A stretch of 64,000 bases of DNA, from positions 1 to 64,000 of the forward strand of contig DWYN01000028.1 of the NCBI GenBank assembly GCA_019118645.1, given 5' to 3'. Below, piece by piece: positions 7,528-62,685 of the stretch. How positions within the stretch are numbered: the first letter of the stretch is position 1; every line of letters begins with the position of its first letter. The notes below the pieces were generated by a model, which saw nothing but the letters and a program-made list of their open reading frames with translations, did not search any database and had not been told where the DNA came from. The translations under genes were made by a program, and so were the position numbers. This stretch comes from Candidatus Blautia excrementipullorum (GTDB lineage: Bacteria; Bacillota; Clostridia; Lachnospirales; Lachnospiraceae).

Positions 7528-8802
7528 ATGGCAAAACGGAGAAGATACATATGGGGGATTTGGGCTCTGGCAGCAGCGCTTTTCGTGGGATCCGGTTTCC
7601 CGGGGACGGAGGTGCGCGCAGAGGCCGGAGAGGAAAAAATTACTCTGCATATGATGTATTACTGGGGAGACACAGACAGCGACATCTCTTCAAAATATCT
7701 GAAAGAGATACTGGAAAAGGATTTTCCGGAAGCCTTTCCGAATGTGGAGCTGGTTCAGGAAACCTGCGACAACGAAACCTACAAGAAAAAACTGAAGGTG
7801 CTGATGGCTTCAGACGAGGCTCCGGACATCATGATCAGCTATGGAGGCGGATTTTCCGAAAACTTTGTAAAAGCCGGTAAGGTGCTGGCGCTGGATGATT
7901 ATCTGGATGATTTCTATAAAGAGCATATGAATATGGAATATCAGGAAAATTTTATATTCGACGGCAGGTGTTACGGCATCTGTTATGCCAACTGGAAAGG
8001 AATCCTGTACTGTAATACAGAACTGCTGGAAAAGGCCGGAGCAGAAATTCCCGAAACATACGAAGAGCTTCTGGAGGTATGCAGAAAACTGAGGGCTGCG
8101 GACATAGAACCCATTGCTCTGGGGATTCTGAATAAATGGCAGGGACAGCAGTGGCTGAATAATTTTACCATACAGCTGGGAGGCGCGGAACTTTATAAGG
8201 ACATGGCCGGGGGCGGGGAAAGCATGGATCAGGAAGTACTGCAGAAGGCGGCGGAGCTGACGGAGGGCCTGATTGATGCGGACGCCTTCTGTACGGACAT
8301 GTATCAGCTTGTCTCCGGAGAGGCGGAAGAGATGTTCCTGAACGGGAAAGCGGCTATGATCTATATCGGGAGCTGGTTTACCCAGTCGGCGGAAGAGCGG
8401 CTGGGGGACAAAGTGGAGGCGGCGAAAATGCCGGTGGTTCCGGGAGCAGAATATTCGCAGGACTATCACGGAGGCGGCAGCAACGGCTGGATTGTATCGG
8501 CGGATACGGAGTACCCGGAGACTGCGGCGGAAATTGTGGCATGGCTCAGCTACAGGCTGAGCTGTTATCAGCCGGAAAACGCTACCTTTTTTCTGGATGA
8601 GGGCGATGCGGTGAATGAAATCAGCCCGACGGGACGCAGAATCAAGGAGATGTATAACGGCAGCAGGGAAGGCGGCATTGCCTGGGATTCGCTGATGACT
8701 TCCGACAGAGCGGATGTGTGGCTGAATTTCTGCGCCGGCCTGTTTGAAAAGAAAATTGACGGACAGGATTTTGCCGGGGAACTGGCGCGATGTATCGGAT
8801 AG
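7528..8802 (+). CDS. ABC transporter extracellular solute-binding protein (family 1)
   Basis: Signal peptide followed by ITLHMMYYWGDTDSDISSKYLKEILEKDFPEAFPNVELVQE...MASDEAPDIMISYGGG. Confidence 0.88.
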   Translation: MAKRRRYIWGIWALAAALFVGSGFPGTEVRAEAGEEKITLHMMYYWGDTDSDISSKYLKEILEKDFPEAFPNVELVQETCDNETYKKKLKVLMASDEAPDIMISYGGGFSENFVKAGKVLALDDYLDDFYKEHMNMEYQENFIFDGRCYGICYANWKGILYCNTELLEKAGAEIPETYEELLEVCRKLRAADIEPIALGILNKWQGQQWLNNFTIQLGGAELYKDMAGGGESMDQEVLQKAAELTEGLIDADAFCTDMYQLVSGEAEEMFLNGKAAMIYIGSWFTQSAEERLGDKVEAAKMPVVPGAEYSQDYHGGGSNGWIVSADTEYPETAAEIVAWLSYRLSCYQPENATFFLDEGDAVNEISPTGRRIKEMYNGSREGGIAWDSLMTSDRADVWLNFCAGLFEKKIDGQDFAGELARCIG

Positions 8803-34304: not shown

Positions 34305-35846
34305 TTGAAAATATACAGGATTTCTGCGGAAAGCAGGGAAAGATATATAGAGGAAGCTTTCCGCAACAACCGGTTTCTGTGTCTGGTGGCTTCATTATTT
34401 TGTATAGCGGCAGAAGGTTTTAATATTGTCAGGGTTCTTTTCTTATCCAACCGAGGGCTGGAAACGATAAATAACAGGATCTATTTCGGCTTCTATCTTT
34501 TCCTTCTGGTATGTTCTGTTTTGTATCTGATTATTGGAAGAAGGAAATGGGACAATTTAAAAACAGCCAACAGGATTTGTCTTATTTATGCAGGTATTGT
34601 ACTTATGTGGAATACTTGTTTAAATGTTTATGACATTCTCCGTTCTGACAGAGCTCATGTTATTATGGCTGCCACCATGCTTGTTGCCTTTTCGGCTCTT
34701 GTGATTATGGAGCCGGTATATGAACTGATTTATATAGGAGTGAACTATTTTATCTTTATGACATTGGCGGAGATTCCCCTCTATTCCGGCGAGGGATTTA
34801 ATTATACGCTTACTGCAATAATGGCAGGCGTAATATGCGGTGTGCGGTTTCAGCATCTGTGTATTGAACTGGATCAGCGCAACCAGATCAGGGAAATCGG
34901 GCGAAAGCTTGATGAAAGAAGACTTTGGCTTACCAAGGAACAATATGACCTGATCAGCCAGAATGCAGGCTTTATTACGTTTCAATGGGATCTTAAAAGC
35001 GACAGAATTGTATTTTCAAAGAACTGGAAAGAGTTTTTTGAGTGCAGCTATGTGATACCTAAGTTCTGCTCGTTTATTGACCGTACGTCTCTGATACAGG
35101 ATGCTCAAAAGCAAAAAATAGAAAAATGTATGGAGGATGTACAGAGAGGAATTCATTATCAAAAATTTGAGGTTCTCCTTCCTGTAAAGGGGCAGAACCA
35201 GCGGTGGTTTAAAGTACAGGTGGTCTGTCAGCAGCCGGCGTCAGAGGAAAGCGCTATGTGTGCAGTGGGCTTTATCAATGATATTACTGCAGAAAAAGAG
35301 CGGCTCCTGGATTTGGAAAGAAACGCAGCGCTGGATTCGTTTACAGGGCTTTTGAACAAAGCCTCCATTGATGATTACGGGCGCAAATGGCTGGAGGATC
35401 TTTCTCTGAAAATGAATAAAATGGCGATGCTGATTCTGGATATGGACGACTTTAAAAAAATAAATGATACATATGGACATCCCTGCGGGGATTATGTCCT
35501 GAAACAGGTGGCGGAGCAGCTGGTGGAATATGCACCTGAGGGGGCAAAAGTAGGCCGCCTGGGCGGCGATGAATTTCTGGTTCTGATGGAAGTGCAGGGC
35601 AATGAGTACCATATTTATGAATACGCGGCTAAAGTGATTCAGAAAGTGAAAACAATCCGATGGAACGGACAGGATGTGAATGCAAAGTGCAGTATCGGAT
35701 TCGCAGTGGCTGCGGAACCTGGATGGAGTTATGAAAAGCTTTATAAATGTGCGGATGATGCTTTATATACAGCGAAAAAGAGCGGCAAAAACCGTGTCCG
35801 GGAGTACTCGGCGGGACAGACCGAGGAAGAAAGTGCCAAAAGATAA
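34305..35846 (+). CDS. Membrane-anchored GGDEF diguanylate cyclase
   Basis: N-terminal TM segments; DSFTGLLNKASIDDYGRKWLED...LILDMDDFKKINDTYGHPCGDYVLK...VGRLGGDEFLVLM with an intact GGDEF. Confidence 0.95.
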   Translation: MKIYRISAESRERYIEEAFRNNRFLCLVASLFCIAAEGFNIVRVLFLSNRGLETINNRIYFGFYLFLLVCSVLYLIIGRRKWDNLKTANRICLIYAGIVLMWNTCLNVYDILRSDRAHVIMAATMLVAFSALVIMEPVYELIYIGVNYFIFMTLAEIPLYSGEGFNYTLTAIMAGVICGVRFQHLCIELDQRNQIREIGRKLDERRLWLTKEQYDLISQNAGFITFQWDLKSDRIVFSKNWKEFFECSYVIPKFCSFIDRTSLIQDAQKQKIEKCMEDVQRGIHYQKFEVLLPVKGQNQRWFKVQVVCQQPASEESAMCAVGFINDITAEKERLLDLERNAALDSFTGLLNKASIDDYGRKWLEDLSLKMNKMAMLILDMDDFKKINDTYGHPCGDYVLKQVAEQLVEYAPEGAKVGRLGGDEFLVLMEVQGNEYHIYEYAAKVIQKVKTIRWNGQDVNAKCSIGFAVAAEPGWSYEKLYKCADDALYTAKKSGKNRVREYSAGQTEEESAKR

Positions 35847-35884: not shown

Positions 35885-35914
35885 TTGACACAATCCAAAA
35901 TATTATGATAAAAT
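35885..35914 (+). promoter_or_regulatory. SigA-type promoter of the EPS operon (TTGACA-N18-TAAAAT)
   Basis: -35 35885-35890, -10 35909-35914. Confidence 0.65.
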
Positions 35915-35984: not shown

Positions 35985-36103
35985 GTTTTAAAATTGAATA
36001 AGTTGGGCAAACCTATAGAAATATAGGGACGCAAAGTTTAGTGTCTAAGGAAGTATCTATGATTGACTGGCTGCATTTGACCTTTTCAAATGCAGCCTTT
36101 TTG
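35985..36103 (+). ncRNA. c-di-GMP-I (GEMM-I) riboswitch with overlapping intrinsic terminator
   Basis: GGGCAAACCTATA-GAAA-TATAGGGACGCAAAG core (36005-36036), ...CTAAGG...TATGATTGACTGGCTGC; terminator ggctgcatttga-cctt-tcaaatgcagccttttt (36069-36102). Confidence 0.93.
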
Positions 36104-36135: not shown

Positions 36136-37695
36136 ATGAAAAAATGGATTTCGTACGCAACATTATTGGTTATGACTGGGGTAGCCGTAACTTTAACTGT
36201 AATGGCCCCGGATATCCTTTCCAGGATTTTTGGCGGAATTATGACAGGAATTATAATTCTGGGAAGCTTTTTGGGGGTAATTCCGATTATAAATTACAGC
36301 GCCGGATTCGGCCATGCAAACAAAAACATTCGAAATGCGCAGAAGGCCCAGACTTCCATGCCCTGGCTGGCAGTTGCAAAAATGGACAACTTCTTCAATC
36401 AAAAAGTACTGGACAGGCTGTTTGAACAGTATAAAGAGAAGGTTGAGGAGGAAAGAAAAAATAATATGATCATCGAGGGCATTGACGAGATGATCAATGA
36501 GGACGAGCTCTCCATAAGGTGCTGGCAGGGAGTTATACTTCAGATTCCGGGTACTCTGACAGGTTTGGGACTTCTGGGAACATTCATTGGTCTGATAACC
36601 GGTATCAGCAGTGTGCAGATCAGTTCTGTGGATGCAACGCTGGCCAGCATTCAGACACTATTCGAGGGAATCAGAATAGCCTTTTACACTTCTATTTCCG
36701 GTGTGATTCTTTCCGTCCTGTTCAATATTATTTATAAGATACTTTGGAATATTATGATCCGGGATCTTGGAATGTTTACGGCTCTGTTCCAGAGAAATAT
36801 TATTCCGTCTGTAGAGGAACAGGAAAGATATTCTCAGAAAAAAGATATGCAGAAGATACAGGAAAGACTGAAACATCTTCCGCATAATGAAGGATATTCT
36901 CTTGCGAATTCAAATGCCGCTATGCTGAACAGCGCAGGCAGCGAGTCTGTACTGATGCCGCAGATCCTGGCGGGATTGAAAAATAATGAATTTACATTTT
37001 ATCTTCAGCCAAGATTTGACCTGAATACCCAGAGAATTATCGGCGCAGAAGCACTGGTGCGCTGGAACCACGCCAAGCTGGGAGTGATCGCTCCCTCGGT
37101 ATTTGTGCCGATACTGGAAAAGAACGGATATATTGCAAAGCTTGACCAGTATATATGGAGAAAAGTCTGTGCGAAAATCAGAGAATGGATCGATGAAGGG
37201 GTACATCCGGTGCCTGTCGCCATTAATATTTCGAAAACAGATATCCTTGCGCTGGATATCTCCGAAGTGTTTTCAGACCTGGTCGATGAATATAAAATTC
37301 CTCCAAGATATGTGGAGTTTGATATCGCCCAGAATGCGTACCTGGAATCCAGAGACGTCACTCTGCAGTTCGAGAAAAATATTCAGCAGAAAGGCTTCCG
37401 GGTTGTGGTGGACGGTTTTAAAGGCGACTTCTTTGGACTGCACTCAGGAGAAGCGGTTCCCTATGCTGACGCATATAAACTGGATCTCAGATTTTGTCCG
37501 GAGGATACAAATATCACAGCTATCGCGGAACAGGCGAGAAATATGCAGGTTAATCTTGTGGCGGAAGGCATTGAGAGCATGAAACAGATGTCGCTTCTTC
37601 GGAAAAACGGCATTACAGAAGGCCAGGGCTTTTATTTATCAAAGTCTGTTCCTATTGATGAGTTTGAGAAGATAATGAATTGGAGAGAAGAATGA
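36136..37695 (+). CDS. MotA/TolQ/ExbB-like proton-channel protein fused to a C-terminal (degenerate) EAL domain
   Basis: Channel motif PGTLTGLGLLGTFIGLITGISSVQ...IRIAFYTSISGVILSVLFNII; EAL domain FTFYLQPRFDLNTQRIIGAEALVRWNHAKLG...VAINIS...YKLDLRF...VAEGIES...GQGFYLSKSV. Confidence 0.9.
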   Translation: MKKWISYATLLVMTGVAVTLTVMAPDILSRIFGGIMTGIIILGSFLGVIPIINYSAGFGHANKNIRNAQKAQTSMPWLAVAKMDNFFNQKVLDRLFEQYKEKVEEERKNNMIIEGIDEMINEDELSIRCWQGVILQIPGTLTGLGLLGTFIGLITGISSVQISSVDATLASIQTLFEGIRIAFYTSISGVILSVLFNIIYKILWNIMIRDLGMFTALFQRNIIPSVEEQERYSQKKDMQKIQERLKHLPHNEGYSLANSNAAMLNSAGSESVLMPQILAGLKNNEFTFYLQPRFDLNTQRIIGAEALVRWNHAKLGVIAPSVFVPILEKNGYIAKLDQYIWRKVCAKIREWIDEGVHPVPVAINISKTDILALDISEVFSDLVDEYKIPPRYVEFDIAQNAYLESRDVTLQFEKNIQQKGFRVVVDGFKGDFFGLHSGEAVPYADAYKLDLRFCPEDTNITAIAEQARNMQVNLVAEGIESMKQMSLLRKNGITEGQGFYLSKSVPIDEFEKIMNWREE

Positions 37696-39380
37696 AAAAG
37701 CAGAAAAAATCTCATTCAGAAATCAATTACTGGCAGTCAAATACAGATATGATGACTGGTCTCGTGCTCATTTTGGTTCTGATTATTCTCCTGCTGATTC
37801 TATATCTGATGCAGATACCGGAAGATACGCTTCCGGATGCGGACGCAGGGGATGGCTATACGGTGGACAATGAGCTGGGTGACACTACAGATGATCATGC
37901 CGATTATGCCGGCGGCGGTTACGAAGACGATGATGACCGGGACGGCGGCGGAGGCGGAGGAGACGAGGAGTACGAGGAAGAAGAGGACATCCAATCCGGC
38001 GGAGGCGGCGGAGGCGGAGGAGACGATTACGGCGGAGACTATGAGTATCCTTATCCTCCCACCAGCGGAGACGAGTGGGGCAAGGCTGCTGTTTACGCGA
38101 CTGTGGTAGACGAAGAGACAGGCCGTGCTATCCGGCAGGCAGGTATAACCTTCGAGCTGTATGAAGAGCAGGGCGGAGACGAGGGCGGTTCCCTTCGATT
38201 CCTTAATACATATTATCCGGAAAAACAGGAGTACCGTAATTACGAAACTACAGAAGAAGGCGTATTTTATCTCCCGGAGAAGATAGACGAAGGAAATTAT
38301 TATTTTAAGCAGATATCCGAAGTGGAGGGGTATGATCTGGCAGAAGCCGTGCACTTTGAAGTGGACGATGTATATGACTGGCCGGATCCCTATGTAGTGT
38401 CCATCGCTATTTCTCCGGCGAAAAATATCATTCCGATAGAATTGACAGACGCAGATACCCAGGAACCCATTGCGGACGGCACCTTTAAAATTACCGCTGC
38501 AGAGGATATCCTTACGGCAGACGGAACTGTGCGCTATGCTCAGGGCGATACGGCGGATACAGTTGAGCTGGATGAGGACGGGCAGGGACAAAGCCAGGAA
38601 TTATATTTGGGAGATTATATTGTCTCTCAGGATACGATACCGCAATACTACGCAAGTATAGAAAGCACTGCCGCCCGGACTGTGGACGCGAAAGATGGAG
38701 GCACTCCGGACGCTGTGAAATTTACCTGCGAAAAAACAGAGATTGCGCTGTCACTTTCTGATGAGATTTATACCGGTCAAAAGCTGGAGGGAGCAGAATT
38801 TGTTCTTTCCTGTGACAAATATCCGGAGCTGACCCAAAGTGCGGAGACGGATAAAAACGGAGAGTTGATTTTTACAGACCTGGAAAAGAACAGAACTTAT
38901 GAGCTGAAACAGGTCAGCGCTCCGGACGATTACAAATTTGATGACACTGCCGTAGAGATTACCGTATCAGAAGACGGACGAATTGACGGAGAGGCAAAAG
39001 TTTCCTTTGAGCTGACGAATTATATTCCGCGTATCAACATCGGTGCAAAGGATATGATTTTAGGAAAACCTGCTTCAGATATGAGCCTGTCACTGTACAG
39101 CGGGGACGGTCAGCTGATCCGTACCTGGACTACAGGCGGTACAGAAGTGACTTTTGAAAATCTTTCAGAGGGCGAATATTATATTCTGCTGGACGGAGAT
39201 GAAGACAAGAAATACGAATTCAGCTTTTCCGAAGATGAAGCAATGCAGGAATTTTCTGTCTCAGTCTGGACGTTGCAGGATATTATTATAATCGCTGCAG
39301 GATGCGGAGCAGTGATACTGGGTATATCTGCAGCCATTGTAATTGTAAGAAAAAAGGTCAGGAAAGGAAATAAGTCGTGA
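37692..39380 (+). CDS. MotB/ExbD-like N-terminal TM, acidic/Gly linker, SpaA/Cna-B-like extracellular domains, C-terminal TM
   Basis: NYWQSNTDMMTGLVLILVLIILLLILYL; low-complexity GGGGGGDEEYEEEED...; repeated VVDEETGRAIRQAGITFELYE, LTDADTQEPIADGTFKI, IYTGQKLEGAEFVLS; 4-bp overlap with the preceding gene. Confidence 0.8.
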   Translation: MKKQKKSHSEINYWQSNTDMMTGLVLILVLIILLLILYLMQIPEDTLPDADAGDGYTVDNELGDTTDDHADYAGGGYEDDDDRDGGGGGGDEEYEEEEDIQSGGGGGGGGDDYGGDYEYPYPPTSGDEWGKAAVYATVVDEETGRAIRQAGITFELYEEQGGDEGGSLRFLNTYYPEKQEYRNYETTEEGVFYLPEKIDEGNYYFKQISEVEGYDLAEAVHFEVDDVYDWPDPYVVSIAISPAKNIIPIELTDADTQEPIADGTFKITAAEDILTADGTVRYAQGDTADTVELDEDGQGQSQELYLGDYIVSQDTIPQYYASIESTAARTVDAKDGGTPDAVKFTCEKTEIALSLSDEIYTGQKLEGAEFVLSCDKYPELTQSAETDKNGELIFTDLEKNRTYELKQVSAPDDYKFDDTAVEITVSEDGRIDGEAKVSFELTNYIPRINIGAKDMILGKPASDMSLSLYSGDGQLIRTWTTGGTEVTFENLSEGEYYILLDGDEDKKYEFSFSEDEAMQEFSVSVWTLQDIIIIAAGCGAVILGISAAIVIVRKKVRKGNKS

Positions 39381-41041
39381 GAAATAACGGAATTCATATT
39401 AGAATCGCAGATATCATATATGGAATAATTAAACGCCGCTTTTTGATCATCGGACTGACGGTGGCTGGACTTCTTATCGGCGTTGTACTTTCCGGAATTT
39501 CCTATCTGCAGGGAGAAATGAGCAAAGAATATATTATTACTAGCTCATTTTCGGTGAATACACAGACAGACAACGGACTGTTCACCTCGGGGTACGATTT
39601 TCCAAGCTCCAGTGACATTGATATGGCCAAGGAGCTGACGGAAACTGTTTCCTATGTTCTGAAAAGCGATAAGATGCTGGACGAAATCATTGATTCTCTG
39701 GGGCTTCTCGGAGTTACCACAAAGGATATAGCGGATAATCTGACGCTGACGACGTACGGCGAAACCCAGATCATCGAAATGTCTCTGTACTGGAGGAGCG
39801 CAGACGAGGGAATTAATATTCTGTCAGAAATTAACAGTCAGGCCCCGGAAATGTTAGAGGAAACTCTTAATATCGGAAATACGGCAGTGATTAATCAGCC
39901 CAGCGCGAAATATCTCATCGGCGGAAGTGTCAATGTGGTTTTGTGGGGTTATCTGGCCCTGCTTGGCTTTGGGCTCAGCATCGGAATTATACTGCTGGAA
40001 TTGATTATGCGTCCTACTCTGCTGAACGTAGAGGATATCGAAAATGCCTATGGGCTGGAAGTCCTGTGCGAGATTGCGGATGACAAAGCATATTTTGAGA
40101 AAAAAAGATCCATTCTGATTGACGACGGGACAAGCACAGACGTGAGGGAAAGCTTTTCCTCCGCTGCGCATATTATACAGAATCATCTGCGGAAGAAAGA
40201 CGGTCCCCACATCATTTACATTACCTCCGCCCTGAAAAGCGAGGGAAAAACGAATGTGATCGCGAACCTTGGCGTGCAGCTTGCCGAGCTGGAAAAGAAG
40301 GTTCTTCTGATTGATCTGGATATGAAAAATCCGAACCTGGGCGGACTGTTTCTGAAAAGAGTAGATTATGATCATTCTCTGAACGCTTTCTATGCAGGGG
40401 ATATTACAAAGGAAGAGGCGGTGATTCCGCTGACCGGATATCTGGATATCATGCCGACGATTCTGGAGAGAAGCGCGATTCCTCTGGACAGCAACCTGTT
40501 CCAGGTGATACGGGAGATCTCGGAAGGTTACGATTATGTTCTCCTGGACACGGCTCCGGTAGGCTTGACGGCGGATCCTATGAGTCTGAATCAGATTGCT
40601 TCTGCGGCGCTGTTTGTAATCCGCTATGATAACGCCACACTGCAGGAAATCAAAGAAGCTCTTGAGCGAGTGGAAAAATCAGGCGTTGACCTTCTTGGCT
40701 GTGTGGTAAACGGAATTAAGGTAAGCCGAAGGGGAGTCAAAAACCCGGTCAAAGAAAGAGAAAACATAAGAAAGGCAGAATTAAAGAGGGATACATTGGG
40801 AGAACCCCTTGTGAATCTGGAAAACTCGGCCGGTGAGAATGGTTTCGGTACAGAAAAAGCAGAGAATGATTCTCTGGTAGCAGGTCTTGCGGCGGATGAA
40901 GCGGCAGAAAGGGAAGAGGAAAAACGGGAAATTACCTCCAGCGGAGACTTCGTAGACTTCCTTTTCCAGGAGGAAAGCAACCAAAATACAGAGAATACAA
41001 AAAAGAAAAATAGGACACCGGAAAATAAGAACAATAAATAA
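39377..41041 (+). CDS. Wzz/BY-kinase-like polysaccharide co-polymerase and ATPase
   Basis: Wzz-like N-terminus with two TMs; Walker ITSALKSEGKTNVIANLG, LLIDLDMKNPNLG, YVLLDTAPVGLTAD. Confidence 0.92.
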   Translation: MRNNGIHIRIADIIYGIIKRRFLIIGLTVAGLLIGVVLSGISYLQGEMSKEYIITSSFSVNTQTDNGLFTSGYDFPSSSDIDMAKELTETVSYVLKSDKMLDEIIDSLGLLGVTTKDIADNLTLTTYGETQIIEMSLYWRSADEGINILSEINSQAPEMLEETLNIGNTAVINQPSAKYLIGGSVNVVLWGYLALLGFGLSIGIILLELIMRPTLLNVEDIENAYGLEVLCEIADDKAYFEKKRSILIDDGTSTDVRESFSSAAHIIQNHLRKKDGPHIIYITSALKSEGKTNVIANLGVQLAELEKKVLLIDLDMKNPNLGGLFLKRVDYDHSLNAFYAGDITKEEAVIPLTGYLDIMPTILERSAIPLDSNLFQVIREISEGYDYVLLDTAPVGLTADPMSLNQIASAALFVIRYDNATLQEIKEALERVEKSGVDLLGCVVNGIKVSRRGVKNPVKERENIRKAELKRDTLGEPLVNLENSAGENGFGTEKAENDSLVAGLAADEAAEREEEKREITSSGDFVDFLFQEESNQNTENTKKKNRTPENKNNK

Positions 41042-41059: not shown

Positions 41060-42322
41060 ATGGCAGGAACAATTAGTAATGCAAAGAGAAACAGTTTTAA
41101 AGTTGAGTTGCTTGTGGTTTTTGCCATTTTGATTTCCCTGGGCTTTCCGGGGAATTATGCGCTGGCATATGGCGAACAGCTGGAGACAGTGATGGTGTAT
41201 GCGGTGTTCATTGCAGAAATCCTTGCCATGCTGCTTTCCAGCGGAGGAAGCTGGCTGGATATTCAGATTATAAACCTGGACAGGAAATATATAGTAATGT
41301 ATTTGTTTGCCGCTGTGATTTTTATTGAGTCTATGCTGGTAACACAAGATAAAGGTCTGGAGTTTATTACCTGTACACGATTGGCTGTGACCCTCCTTTT
41401 TGTGATCTGGCTGCAGGAACAATTTGAATTTGAGCGAATGGTAGAACTTATCTGCATTGCACAGGTTTTATTTCTTATTTTTACCTTACTTTTTACATCC
41501 CAATATTTCAGCTATGCGTTTTCAGGCGGCAGACCCTTTGCAGAGCCGTTTATCGGATTATATTCGACAAAAAACACATGTGCCGCAGAGCTGGCTTTCG
41601 GGATTATTCTAATAGCTTTTTTGATCCGGCAGAGGCTGCATAACGGAAGACAATATTTCTGGTGGATGGTAATCGAGGCTGTGCAGATAGCACTGATCCT
41701 GATGTGCCAGGCAACGGGAGCGATGGTCTGTACTGTGTGCGTACTTGTACTGTTCTTCTTTTTGAAATATATTCGCCTGCCTCTGGGATGGATTTATATA
41801 TCCGGCAGTATTCTCTTTTTGTTTTTGACGCTGACGCTGATGCCGGCTTTTGAATGGATATTTGAGCTTTTAGGAAAAGATGCCACATTAACAGGAAGAA
41901 TTCCATTGTGGAATCAGATGATAACCGTTATGACAAACCATAATACATTTACTGGCTTCGGATATGGAATGTTCTGGCGGGATGAGGCTGCGGTGGCTTT
42001 AGTGCGGGCGCCGTTTGAAGAAACCACATTTTTGGGAAGCATTTCATCCGGTGCTCACAATATGCTGATGGAATTTTGGGCAAACAGCGGACTGATTGGG
42101 ATTGCGCTGCTTTTTGCCATGCTTCTGTTTTCCATGAGAAAAGTACAGGCATTTTCGGAAGAAAAATACATTTTTTGCGCTCTTATTTTAGTTTATTTAA
42201 TGCTGAATGGACTTACGGAGAGATGCCTGGGAGGAAACTATGATTATAAAATGATGGGATTTTTACTGGTTATTGCAGTTGGATGCCGCTTATCAGGCAT
42301 GCAGGACAAAGATACTTGCTGA
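41060..42322 (+). CDS. O-antigen ligase/Wzy-like polymerase
   Basis: Multi-TM, GLYSTKNTCAAELAFGIILIAFLI...LTGRIPLWNQMI...SSGAHNMLMEFWANSGLIG. Confidence 0.88.
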   Translation: MAGTISNAKRNSFKVELLVVFAILISLGFPGNYALAYGEQLETVMVYAVFIAEILAMLLSSGGSWLDIQIINLDRKYIVMYLFAAVIFIESMLVTQDKGLEFITCTRLAVTLLFVIWLQEQFEFERMVELICIAQVLFLIFTLLFTSQYFSYAFSGGRPFAEPFIGLYSTKNTCAAELAFGIILIAFLIRQRLHNGRQYFWWMVIEAVQIALILMCQATGAMVCTVCVLVLFFFLKYIRLPLGWIYISGSILFLFLTLTLMPAFEWIFELLGKDATLTGRIPLWNQMITVMTNHNTFTGFGYGMFWRDEAAVALVRAPFEETTFLGSISSGAHNMLMEFWANSGLIGIALLFAMLLFSMRKVQAFSEEKYIFCALILVYLMLNGLTERCLGGNYDYKMMGFLLVIAVGCRLSGMQDKDTC

Positions 42323-42355: not shown

Positions 42356-43033
42356 ATGAATCTTTTTTTAGCTATTTTGCTTATTGTGGTTGGATATTTC
42401 ATTTGTTTTGTTTTGGCGGCGGCACGATTAAATACCGGAACTTCAATTACAACATTAGCCTTGGCGATTCTGCTGATTTATGGATGCATAATAGGGATGT
42501 TTGTCCTTGCCGCCAGATACTCCGCCACCATGGGAATTTTGCTGTATTCTGTCAGCATCATCTATTCTCTGGCATATTGGATGCGGAAAGGATGCCATTT
42601 TATTCAGAGACGCCATAAAATTCACTGGGGCCCTTTTCTGACACTTCTCGCATATATACTGGCTATATTTTATCTCACGCTCATTACCCGTGAAAACGGA
42701 ACGGAACTAAGAATCCAAATGAATGTTCTGAACTGGCTGAATCAGCCTGCACAGTCAGGCAATATAAGCACTTTTCATCATATGTTTTCTAATTTTGTCA
42801 TGTTTGTTCCACTTGGAGTTATTTTTCCTTTTATTACAGGAAATGCAGAAAAAAAATTTATTGTCAGCACGTCATTTGGAATGCTCCTGTCGGTTGCGAT
42901 CGAGACGGGGCAGCTTATATTTCACTCAGGCCTGTGCGATATTGACGATATATTGGCAAATACATTGGGAGCAGCGGCAGGCGCTTTTCTTGTTGTAATT
43001 TATCTTAAATTGAGCAGAAAAAGCAGATCATGA
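42356..43033 (+). CDS. VanZ family protein
   Basis: ILAIFYLTLITRENGTELRIQ...FHHMFSNFVMFVPLGVIFPFI...IETGQLIFHSGLCDIDDILANTLGAAAGAFL. Confidence 0.9.
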   Translation: MNLFLAILLIVVGYFICFVLAAARLNTGTSITTLALAILLIYGCIIGMFVLAARYSATMGILLYSVSIIYSLAYWMRKGCHFIQRRHKIHWGPFLTLLAYILAIFYLTLITRENGTELRIQMNVLNWLNQPAQSGNISTFHHMFSNFVMFVPLGVIFPFITGNAEKKFIVSTSFGMLLSVAIETGQLIFHSGLCDIDDILANTLGAAAGAFLVVIYLKLSRKSRS

Positions 43034-43060
43034 ATGTTAAGTGTTTTTGGAGGGCAACGC

Positions 43061-44266
43061 ATGGAAATGACTGAAAAAAAGAAAATACTTATTATTGTGG
43101 AAAACCTTACGGTACCTTTTGACACCCGTGTATGGCAGGAAGCCGTCACTTTGGTGAATAACGGCTACACTGTATCAGTGATATGTCCAAAAGGAAAAGG
43201 TTATACAAAAGAAGAAGAAATCCTGCAGGGGGTTCATATTTTCCGGCATGATCTTCCGCCGGAGGGAAACGGAGCGCTGGGCTACTTCAAAGAGTACTTT
43301 TTTGCTCTAAAAGAAGAGACCAGACTGGCAAAAAAAGTTTATAAAGAAATAGGGTTTGATGTCATCCAGGGATGTAATCCTCCGGATGATATTTATATGG
43401 TAGCGCGAAAGTTTAAGAAGTATGGCGTGCGATATGTATTCGACCATCATGATATATGTCCGGAGCTTTTTGAGGCAAAGTTCGGACGGACAAAGGGGCT
43501 TCTGTATTTCAGCCAGATATGGCTGGAGAGACAGACTTACAAGCACTGCACATTCGCCTTTGCGACAAATGAGAGTTATAAAAAAATTGCCGTTGAACGT
43601 GGAAAAATGGATCCTGAAAAGGTGATTATACTGCGCAGCGGACCGAAGCTGAACCGCATGCGGATAATGCCTCCAAAAGAAGAACTTAAACGGGGCTACA
43701 AATATATGGTTGGGTATTTAGGCGTGATCGGACAGCAGGAGGGAGTGGAATATCTGCTGACAGCCGCAAAATACATTAAAGAACGTGAAAACAACGTATT
43801 CTGGGGTATTGTAGGAGCCGGTCCTCATTTGGAAGCTTTAAAGAAAATGGCGGCGGATATGGGGCTTGACGACTGTGTGAAATTCACAGGACGTATACCG
43901 GATCAGCAAATGCTGGAATATATGAATACGGCGGATGTCTGTGTAAACAGCGATAAATACAACAGAATGAACGATAAAAGCACTATGAATAAAGTTCTGG
44001 AATATATGGCTTTGGGCAAGCCGATCGTTCAATTTGACTTAACAGAAGGCAGATATTCTGCTCAGGAGGCTTCTCTATATGCCAGGAACAATGACGCGGT
44101 TGATATGGCTGAGAAGATTATGGAACTTCTGAAAAATCCTGAAAAGCGAAAAAAAATGGGTGAGTACGGAAGAAACCGGATTATGACAGAACTCAGCTGG
44201 GAGCATACGAGTCAGGCGCTGACAGAGGGATATAGAAAATTCTTTTCGGGAGAGTTTGACAGATAG
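43061..44266 (+). CDS. Glycosyltransferase family 4
   Basis: ENLTVPFDTRVWQEAVTLVNNGYTVSVICPKG...VLEYMALGKPIVQFDLTEGRYSA. Confidence 0.92.
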   Translation: MEMTEKKKILIIVENLTVPFDTRVWQEAVTLVNNGYTVSVICPKGKGYTKEEEILQGVHIFRHDLPPEGNGALGYFKEYFFALKEETRLAKKVYKEIGFDVIQGCNPPDDIYMVARKFKKYGVRYVFDHHDICPELFEAKFGRTKGLLYFSQIWLERQTYKHCTFAFATNESYKKIAVERGKMDPEKVIILRSGPKLNRMRIMPPKEELKRGYKYMVGYLGVIGQQEGVEYLLTAAKYIKERENNVFWGIVGAGPHLEALKKMAADMGLDDCVKFTGRIPDQQMLEYMNTADVCVNSDKYNRMNDKSTMNKVLEYMALGKPIVQFDLTEGRYSAQEASLYARNNDAVDMAEKIMELLKNPEKRKKMGEYGRNRIMTELSWEHTSQALTEGYRKFFSGEFDR

Positions 44267-51355: not shown

Positions 51356-53251
51356 ATGTCCAATACAAGGTGGCTTATCCGAAGGCTGAAAGCCATGAGC
51401 ATACCGGAGGTGGCGTGGAGACTTCATCAGAAGCTGATTCAAAAAAAAGAAACCGCTTATTTTAAACCTCATAAAACCCCGGTAACAGAGAGGGTATTCA
51501 GCCATGAACTGGAAGAGCTGAGGCTAAATGCCGCTAAAATGCATTTAAACCTAAAAAACAAGGGGGTTTCGACGAAGACTGCTATTCCCCTTCTGGGCGG
51601 ATATGAATACGACAGCTATAAACAAAAGTGGAGCGCCGGATTCCAGACAGAACATGTGTGGCCGGATATCTTTTCCTATGATCTGGAATATAAACAGAGA
51701 GATGATATCGGCGATGCCAGAACAAACTGGGAATTAAACAGACATTTTCAATTTGCCATCCTTGCCAAAGATTACAGAGCCTCAGGAAATAAAATGTTTT
51801 TGGAGGAATTGGAAACTCTGTTTTCTGACTGGAACGAGAAAAATCCGTTCCTGTGGGGGATTTCGTGGACAAGCGCAATGGAAATCGCCATCCGGTGCAG
51901 CAACTGGTGCTATGCATATTGCTTCCTGGACGGAATGGAAGCCGCTGCAGAACTTCAGGATAAACTGAGGATTGGCATTATAAATATGGCGGATTATATT
52001 GCGAAACATTATTCAAGATATTCTTCCGCAAATAATCATCTGATTGTGGAGGCATATGCAGTTGGACAGACAGGCATACTCTGCAATTATGATGAATGGA
52101 TAAAAAAAGCGTCAGAGATACTTACGAAAGAGCTTCCCATTCAAAACTATGGGGATGGCGTCAACAGAGAATTATCCTTGCATTATCAGGCGTTTTATAT
52201 GGAAGCGATGGGGCTGTTCATGCGTCTCATGAAAAAAAACAATATGGAATGCCCTGATTTATGGCATACCATGCTTCAAAAAATGTGCTGTTATGTTGCG
52301 GACTGTATTGGAAACTATGGCGAAGTGATAGAATTTGGTGATAATGATGAAGGAAAAATTCTGGATCTTCAGGGCGGAGTGGATTATTACCCCTATGTAT
52401 TAGGGGTGTTCAGCTATCTTCTGCCCATGCGCTATACATCCGAAAAAAATATGCAGTGCGAAAATCTGAGATGGCTGTTCGGAAGCGGTGAAGCGGACGC
52501 GGCCTGCAAAAAAGCAGCCTATCATCCGCCGGAAAGCGCCTGCTACCGGGAAGGCGGAAATACAATTCTGAGAAGCGAAAACGGAAAGATACTGATCGGT
52601 ATTGATCATGCAGCTTTGGGATTCGGGAGTATTGCCGCGCATGGACACGCAGATGCGCTGAGTTTTCAGATGTATGCGGAGGGGCAGCCGATCTTTGTTG
52701 ATCCGGGCACTTTCATTTATCATTGTGATTTGAGGAGCAGAAATGAATTCAGAAGGACGGAAAATCATAATACGGTATGTGTCGGAGGACGTGATCAGTC
52801 AGAAATGCTGGGGCCATTTCTCTGGGGAAGGAAGGCGGAATGTAAACTGCTGGAATTTAGTGAAAATAATAGGGGAATTTCGCTGAAAGCCTGTCATAAT
52901 GGATATGGGCCAGTCATTCACACCCGTAAAATCTTATTTGATAAAAAAAATAAATTGGAAATTTCTGATACGATTTCTGAACAGGGGAAGGGCACGTTTA
53001 TTTTGGTTCTGGCGCCTGGTTCAGTGATCAGAGAAAATGGGCAGAACTTTTTCTCTGTGCAGTGCGGCTTAAAAACTTTTTCTATAAAGTTTCAGGGATC
53101 GGAGACTCCTGTCAGTATAGAAAAAATGTATTATTCCGGAAAATATGGGGAGCGGGAAAAAACACAAAAAATGAAAGTGAAATTTATGGAAAAACTTATC
53201 ACGACTATTATTTATGAGGGAAAAGTAATAAAGGACGGAGAGATGCTATGA
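51356..53251 (+). CDS. Heparinase II/III / alginate-lyase family protein
   Basis: NRHFQFAILAKDYRASG...SSANNHLIVEAYAVGQTGI...GHADALSFQMYAEGQPIFVDPGTFIY...RRTENHNTVCVGGRDQSEMLGPFLWG. Confidence 0.92.
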   Translation: MSNTRWLIRRLKAMSIPEVAWRLHQKLIQKKETAYFKPHKTPVTERVFSHELEELRLNAAKMHLNLKNKGVSTKTAIPLLGGYEYDSYKQKWSAGFQTEHVWPDIFSYDLEYKQRDDIGDARTNWELNRHFQFAILAKDYRASGNKMFLEELETLFSDWNEKNPFLWGISWTSAMEIAIRCSNWCYAYCFLDGMEAAAELQDKLRIGIINMADYIAKHYSRYSSANNHLIVEAYAVGQTGILCNYDEWIKKASEILTKELPIQNYGDGVNRELSLHYQAFYMEAMGLFMRLMKKNNMECPDLWHTMLQKMCCYVADCIGNYGEVIEFGDNDEGKILDLQGGVDYYPYVLGVFSYLLPMRYTSEKNMQCENLRWLFGSGEADAACKKAAYHPPESACYREGGNTILRSENGKILIGIDHAALGFGSIAAHGHADALSFQMYAEGQPIFVDPGTFIYHCDLRSRNEFRRTENHNTVCVGGRDQSEMLGPFLWGRKAECKLLEFSENNRGISLKACHNGYGPVIHTRKILFDKKNKLEISDTISEQGKGTFILVLAPGSVIRENGQNFFSVQCGLKTFSIKFQGSETPVSIEKMYYSGKYGEREKTQKMKVKFMEKLITTIIYEGKVIKDGEML

Positions 53252-62289: not shown

Positions 62290-62417
62290 ATAACATTTTA
62301 GGCAAACTTACAGAAATGTAAGGACGCAAAGTCAGGAGCCTTAAGTGCATGAGGACGGGTCAATCCCGGGCTGCACAAGGTCGTTCGGCTGCAACGTATC
62401 CGTTGCAGTCTTTTTTA
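62290..62417 (+). ncRNA. Second c-di-GMP-I (GEMM-I) riboswitch with downstream intrinsic terminator
   Basis: AGGCAAACTTACA-GAAA-TGTAAGGACGCAAAGTCAGGAGCCTTAAG...CCCGGGCTGCAC; terminator ggctgcaacg-tatc-cgttgcagtctttttt (62387-62416). Confidence 0.93.
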
Positions 62418-62492
62418 TTTTAACAGACGAAGAAACTGAAAAGAAAAATTTTAAATATACAAAATTTTCAGAGCAAAAAGGAGGCAGCTATT

Positions 62493-62657
62493 ATGGACTA
62501 CAAAAAAGCAGCAGCGGAAGTCATTTATTTCACCAACCGGGACGTGATAACGACGAGCGGAGGCTCGGATATCGGGGGCTGTCGTACCCCCGGATGGGAT
62601 AGAGGAAACGGTTGTAGTGGCACCAGCGGAGATTGTCCGGGACAGTCATGGAAATAA
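62493..62657 (+). CDS. 54-aa putative RiPP precursor peptide
   Basis: RBS aaaggagg; MDYKKAAAEVIYFTNRDVITTSGGSDIGGCRTPGWDRGNGCSGTSGDCPGQSWK; below the size cutoff of the supplied ORF track. Confidence 0.75.
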   Translation: MDYKKAAAEVIYFTNRDVITTSGGSDIGGCRTPGWDRGNGCSGTSGDCPGQSWK

Positions 62658-62685
62658 TAAGCATGAACTGATAATTTTAAAAAGG

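Follow-up and report, generated by a model that had tools for sequence, protein, structure and literature searches.

What task a putative ion motor of the MotA/MotB kind performs inside a polysaccharide operon is the question raised by a three-gene cassette of Candidatus Blautia excrementipullorum (assembly GCA_019118645.1, contig DWYN01000028.1). The cassette lies on the forward strand of a 64,000-nt stretch of that contig, referred to here as the window. Its genes encode a MotA/ZorA-type channel fused to an EAL domain, a MotB/ZorB-like protein with SpaA ectodomains, and a fusion of Wzz with a bacterial tyrosine kinase (BY-kinase). By their sequences, the first two proteins belong to the ZorAB branch of the 5:2 ion-motor superfamily. 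On balance, the analysis favours a ZorAB-type ion motor dedicated to a Wzy/Wzz polysaccharide machine, of which it forms a part, with cyclic dimeric GMP (c-di-GMP) gating it in most loci.

The motor pair and its Wzz partner

The three genes and the domains of the motor pair are as follows (TM, transmembrane; AF2, AlphaFold2).

36136-37695, forward strand: MotA-EAL gene, 519 aa
36136-36870, forward strand: MotA/ZorA-type channel domain, residues 1-245 (Pfam MotA_ExbB 3.5e-8, NCBIfam ZorA 1.3e-15, PADLOC ZorA1 2.7e-18)
36961-37680, forward strand: non-canonical EAL domain, residues 276-515 (Pfam EAL 2.1e-44; Foldseek matches to EAL structures in the PDB, TM-score (TMt) about 0.8-0.87)
37692-39380, forward strand: MotB/ZorB-like gene with SpaA ectodomains, 562 aa counted from the ATG
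37728-37814, forward strand: N-terminal TM helix with ion-pathway Asp19, codon 37746-37748 (AF2 helix 13-41)
37815-38075, forward strand: acidic Gly-rich disordered linker, residues 42-128, differing between loci (pLDDT below 50)
38091-39266, forward strand: four prealbumin-like (SpaA/Cna-B) beta domains (Pfam SpaA 8e-28, in four stretches; AF2 residues 134-525)
39273-39368, forward strand: C-terminal TM helix and basic tail (AF2 helix 528-559)
39377-41041, forward strand: Wzz/BY-kinase fusion gene, the invariant third gene

Both junctions are 4-bp overlaps (ATGA at 37692 between MotA and MotB, GTGA at 39377 between MotB and Wzz), in agreement with an earlier note on this DNA, which had described the overlap of the pair and its coupling to a Wzz/BY-kinase gene. 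For the MotB-like protein the ATG at 37692 is the favoured start, and the mechanically listed TTG at 37680 is less likely.

The Pfam MotA_ExbB match covers residues 90-204 and lies above the cut-off. PDB sequence matches to the MotA part include ZorA (4e-14 to 2e-13) and 8VVN (1.8e-14). All matches at E<=1 are either ZorA or 8VVN/8VVI, titled only 'MotA/TolQ/ExbB proton channel domain-containing', and no flagellar MotA, ExbB or TolQ structure is among them. The two Pfam matches bear out the MotA/TolQ-type channel with a C-terminal EAL domain that the earlier note had read from the letters, and the PDB, NCBIfam and PADLOC matches place its supposed membership in the 5:2 motor superfamily specifically in the ZorAB branch, by homology. 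A Foldseek search with the whole MotA-EAL model gave EAL structures alone among the top 50 listed, so it is uninformative on the MotA half.

Conservation was assessed over 17 cassette loci (the window, L039-L044 and L067-L076), found in 11 of the 65 genomes of the window's genus and in six other Clostridia. The loci came from a contig scan with two weak peptide patterns, which supplied six of them, and from genome searches at genus, family, order, class and phylum level. Pore motifs of the window MotA domain are T142, G148-T149-F150 and A182-F183-Y184-T185-S186, and the TM3/TM4 motifs LGTFxGL and AFYTSI were found in all 17 loci. TM3-TM4 is the best conserved of the regions compared, with a mean pairwise identity of 67%, as against 50% for the EAL domain, 41% for the ectodomain and 26% for the linker.

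The MotB-like protein resembles ZorB over its first 42 residues (E 5e-6 to 5e-4; PADLOC ZorB1 4.9e-6) and keeps the TM Asp, D19 in the window, in 17/17 loci, as expected of the single-TM MotB/ExbD-like N-terminus proposed earlier. Cryo-electron microscopy of ZorAB has revealed a 5:2 ion-driven complex in which a critical ZorB Asp (D24 or D21) packs against a ring Ser/Thr (PMC11890865). No OmpA or other peptidoglycan-binding domain was found on the MotB-like protein with Pfam or Foldseek, and SpaA domains stand in its place. Pfam SpaA and the AF2 model thus agree with the prealbumin-like repeats and C-terminal TM helix that had been described as replacing an OmpA-like domain. Foldseek matches of the ectodomain include a TIE protein and Gram-positive pilins. 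The acidic Gly linker of the earlier description is present in the window, but it is too poorly conserved for its precise composition to count as a defining feature. An LPXTG-anchored surface protein was also considered and was rejected, as none of the tails inspected has an LPXTG motif ahead of the C-terminal TM helix.

In the third protein of the window, two TM helices flank the Wzz domain and Walker A, A' and B motifs are present. The C-terminal Tyr cluster of BY-kinases was not found there, its 75-aa tail containing no Tyr, and a Tyr-rich run occurs in the tail only in L044, L070, L071 and L074. The Walker-A Lys is lost in L075, where GKT has become GVS. At L041 (13426-17004) the Wzz/BY-kinase open reading frame (ORF) is far longer than at other loci, at 1192 aa, and its Walker A reads GRT instead of GKT.

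Linkage and constraint across genomes

The MotB-SpaA gene follows the MotA gene in 17/17 loci. The Wzz/BY-kinase gene is third and on the same strand in every one of the 15 loci with enough flanking sequence for this test, and in most of them it overlaps the preceding gene or is separated from it by a few bases. Nearly all loci are flanked by genes for Wzy, VanZ, glycosyltransferases, sugar transferases, aminotransferases or nucleotide-sugar enzymes. The exceptions are L076, without obvious polysaccharide genes, and L069, which has just a UppP/BacA-type gene beside a contig end. Conserved linkage to exopolysaccharide (EPS) genes, on whose presence the earlier note had made its proposal depend, was therefore found.

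Distribution across genomes follows the same lines. Among the 65 genus genomes, MotA-EAL (E<1e-95) and MotB-SpaA (E<1e-79) occur in the same 11. The Wzz subfamily of the cassette (at least 40% identity) is present in nine of these 11 and in no other genome of the 65; in the remaining two the contigs are about 2.9 kb long. The next-closest Wzz anywhere in the genus is 27% identical. Under random assortment, with phylogeny ignored, the chance of these co-occurrences is about 1e-12 and 1.7e-9, figures that are a guide only, since shared descent inflates them. Chance adjacency of motor and Wzz is rejected by the 17 loci together with the matching distribution across genomes.

In the window, the cassette is followed by polysaccharide genes.

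41060-42322, forward strand: Wzy-type polymerase/ligase (Pfam Wzy_C 7.6e-10)
42356-43033, forward strand: VanZ-like membrane protein, a recurrent neighbour (Pfam VanZ 1.2e-19)
43034-44266, forward strand: glycosyltransferase group 1 (Pfam 1.6e-24)

A VanZ gene lies near the cassette in 9 of the 15 loci with flanks. The polysaccharide cluster of the window also contains a heparinase II/III-like protein (51356-53251; Pfam 1.8e-38).

A flagellar stator was rejected as an explanation, as the window's own genome, which is about 89% complete, gave no FliG_C match while flagellate control genomes were positive. The same genome encodes another pair (L027, 4928-7825), ZorA-like with a coiled-coil tail and ZorB-like with OmpA (PADLOC ZorB1 3e-67), which lies near apparent pheST genes and a gene resembling that for phosphoglycerate mutase. 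Of the 65 genus genomes, 59 gave one or more MotA-domain matches at E<=1e-15, most at the more distant level of the L027-type pair, and this type of non-flagellar motor is apparently near-universal in the genus.

Probable control by c-di-GMP

The EAL domain of the cassette (Pfam match to residues 279-503) is degenerate in a consistent way. In the window EALVRW is retained and DDFG has become DGFKGD. The latter motif reads xGF in all 16 EAL-bearing loci, its second Asp replaced by Gly, and loop 6 is altered in all 16 as well; an intact DDFG with loop 6, as in an active EAL phosphodiesterase, was found in none of them. The window protein has all of E305, R309, N364, D426, K448, E477 and Q497; the full set is retained in 13/16 members, with losses in L073, L074 and L075. 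Loss of the second DDFG Asp with the other motif residues kept is the pattern expected of a receptor, and the degenerate domain probably binds c-di-GMP without hydrolysing it.

Two variant loci were observed. At L075 (10360-11886 and 7351-8778) hardly any EAL motif residue is left and the Walker-A Lys is missing as well, with the motor residues and Wzz retained. In L076 the MotA at 7618-8433 has no EAL domain, and a LuxR-type response regulator lies ahead of it.

Motor residues are kept in 17/17 loci, whereas the EAL motif residues are nearly all gone from L075, along with the Walker-A Lys, and L076 has no EAL domain. The constrained core of the cassette is therefore motor plus Wzz scaffold, to which EAL and kinase activity contribute as inputs that can be adjusted.

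Transcription of the window operon appears to be under c-di-GMP control as well, as the features upstream suggest.

34305-35846, forward strand: membrane GGDEF protein, putative diguanylate cyclase, directly upstream of the operon (Pfam GGDEF 2.4e-36)
35885-35914, forward strand: sigma-70-like promoter ahead of the riboswitch, TTGACA-18-TAAAAT, 11/12 (consensus match only)
35996-36078, forward strand: c-di-GMP-I (GEMM-I) riboswitch aptamer (Rfam RF01051, 62 bits, gathering 35)
36069-36097, forward strand: intrinsic terminator, 12-bp stem and T run, whose 5' arm shares 10 nt with the 3' end of the aptamer

Since it overlaps the aptamer, the terminator should be unable to form while the aptamer is folded, from which we infer a riboswitch that is ON with c-di-GMP; the identical 10-nt overlap occurs in L039 and L040. 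GEMM-I is upstream of five loci only (the window, L039, L040, L044/L023 and L074), and as a general hallmark of the cassette it was rejected on this count. Upstream regulators differ, with response-regulator genes (LytTR or other two-component, LuxR-type) before some loci. Of the co-occurrences to which the earlier note had looked, those with Wzz/BY-kinase and polysaccharide genes stood, but that with GEMM-I did not extend beyond the five loci. Its c-di-GMP sensing likewise fits most loci, in which the EAL motif residues are largely kept. It is not universal, because GEMM-I is so restricted, the EAL domain of L075 is ruined and L076 has none. c-di-GMP thus looks like a common yet dispensable input.

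A second GEMM-I (55 bits) with an overlapping terminator lies at 62291-62660 of the window and beyond, upstream of a 54-aa Cys/Gly-rich ORF (62494-62658). It is followed by a radical-SAM-like coding region with a CxxxCxxC motif, whose frame from 62758 holds a stop. This region possibly encodes a c-di-GMP-controlled ribosomally synthesized and post-translationally modified peptide.

Proposed role of the motor and related systems

In the proposed mechanism, the pair would form a MotA-like ring and a MotB-like axle, with the 5:2 stoichiometry of the family. EAL domains on the cytoplasmic face of the ring would, in most loci, gate the motor on binding c-di-GMP, and the SpaA/Cna-B stalk with its second TM helix would provide an external fixed point in place of a peptidoglycan-binding OmpA domain. 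Driven by ion flow, the ring would rotate or be re-set against the stalk. This output would act on the partner Wzz co-polymerase and may assist the extrusion, spacing or movement through the wall of polymer that is still growing or already released. In the window, high c-di-GMP would both turn transcription on and engage the motor, because the operon stands behind a GEMM-I whose terminator overlaps the aptamer. The most specific version, in which c-di-GMP on the rotor EAL engages ion flow and rotation against the twice-anchored stalk drives Wzz/Wzy extrusion or release through the wall, is possible and put forward tentatively.

Several points weigh against a motor dedicated to polysaccharide assembly. 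AF2 modelled the EAL half of MotA-EAL well, whereas the MotA half has a pLDDT of about 35-75 (low to middling). To our knowledge, a second, C-terminal TM helix next to the ring is unusual for the 5:2 motor superfamily. Few genomes beyond the genus have the cassette: 1/392 order genomes (E<=1e-50), 3/392 class genomes and 1/399 phylum genomes, the window counted each time. Its gene linkage to Wzz could equally be explained by regulation. Myxococcus AglRQS acts only after export: it shifts glycan along the cell surface, and the cells make and export this glycan without it (PMC3858216). A role in transport or spacing is accordingly no less possible than one in extrusion.

The main rival to the motor is a signalling role, in which the stalk senses wall or polymer, the ring senses c-di-GMP, and an ion-coupled change of conformation signals to the Wzz/BY-kinase when polymerisation should proceed or cease; the pair would then be a sensor of the Zorya kind put to use in polysaccharide control. 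ZorAB has been proposed to relay disturbance of the envelope as a cytoplasmic signal (PMC11890865), c-di-GMP domains serve in signalling, and the upstream regulators are variable. However, kinase signalling is the less constrained part, with the Tyr cluster absent in most loci and L075 without its Walker-A Lys, whereas motor residues are invariant, and a signal transducer is rather doubtful. Another reading keeps the motor and places it after export, where it would shift exported polysaccharide or adhesive stalks for coat distribution or slow motility. The behaviour of AglRQS and the pilin/adhesin type of the SpaA/Cna-B domains are in its favour. Such a surface transporter is nevertheless unlikely: Wzz is an assembly and not a transport component, a twice-anchored MotB would be poorly suited as travelling cargo, and Glt/Nfs-like proteins were not noticed in the cassettes, though no profile search was made for them.

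Two further readings were considered. The clear EAL fold, with EALVRW, N, K, E and Q retained, would suit a membrane-tethered phosphodiesterase that lowers c-di-GMP locally and uses MotA/MotB as a scaffold only. This is very improbable in view of the second DDFG Asp and loop 6 altered throughout, and of an EAL domain ruined or absent at loci where motor residues persist. A derived Zorya anti-phage system would account for ZorA and ZorB being the closest homologues and is scarcely plausible: the MotB-like protein has no OmpA domain, the constant neighbours are Wzz and polysaccharide genes (others searched are polysaccharide or regulatory), and ZorC/D/E-like neighbours were not noticed, although not every neighbouring ORF was searched against Zorya models.

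Little is understood of how long polysaccharides are exported through the wall and how this is powered or timed, especially in cells without an outer membrane. If the assembly operon has an ion motor of its own, Wzy/Wzz systems would gain a power source and c-di-GMP control would sit directly on a rotary motor. Such a motor would also show that the peptidoglycan-binding domain of MotB can be exchanged for a pilin-like stalk, and the 5:2 motor superfamily would gain a new cellular task in gut commensals, with a role for Wzz that is testable by point mutations. No description of a MotA-EAL fusion or of a TolQ-type motor in EPS clusters was found in openly accessible literature. The earlier note, which knew of no system with this architecture, is matched by that search, subscription journals being mostly outside it. 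The single modules are known; what appears undescribed in the open literature is the ZorA-EAL fusion, the replacement of OmpA by a SpaA stalk anchored at both ends, and the unvarying association with Wzz.

Related systems share one or another of these modules. EAL domains without the full catalytic set serve as c-di-GMP receptors in LapD and FimX, which resemble the cassette in their degenerate EAL and are not fused to an ion channel as it is. In flagellar MotAB, the separate PilZ effector YcgR acts with c-di-GMP on the stator. There too c-di-GMP bears on a MotA-type stator, whereas in the cassette the channel itself carries the EAL domain, as a fusion, and a search of the genome gave no FliG match. 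With Wzc and CpsCD the cassette shares a Wzz TM domain and a BY-kinase core, encoded within a Wzy-type cluster. The cassette differs in having a fused Wzz-kinase in a Gram-positive bacterium, a Tyr cluster that is mostly absent, and a constant motor pair.

By analogy, the closest functional precedent would be Myxococcus AglRQS-Nfs/Glt, a MotAB-like ion motor working with surface polysaccharide (PMC3858216). That system is Gram-negative, with a three-gene motor, a large Nfs/Glt complex and transport after export, and neither a c-di-GMP domain nor a Wzz fusion partner, both present in the cassette, is described there. The closest sequence relatives of both membrane parts are found in Zorya ZorAB (PDB 8QYD, 8VVN), which shares two adjacent genes, a cytoplasmic extension of the A subunit and the conserved MotB Asp. 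In ZorA this extension is a long helical tail and in the cassette MotA it is an EAL domain, while the peptidoglycan-binding OmpA of ZorB corresponds to a SpaA stalk with a second TM helix. Zorya has a nuclease module, which was not noticed here in a search of neighbours that was not exhaustive for Zorya models; the constant partner of the cassette is the Wzz/BY-kinase.

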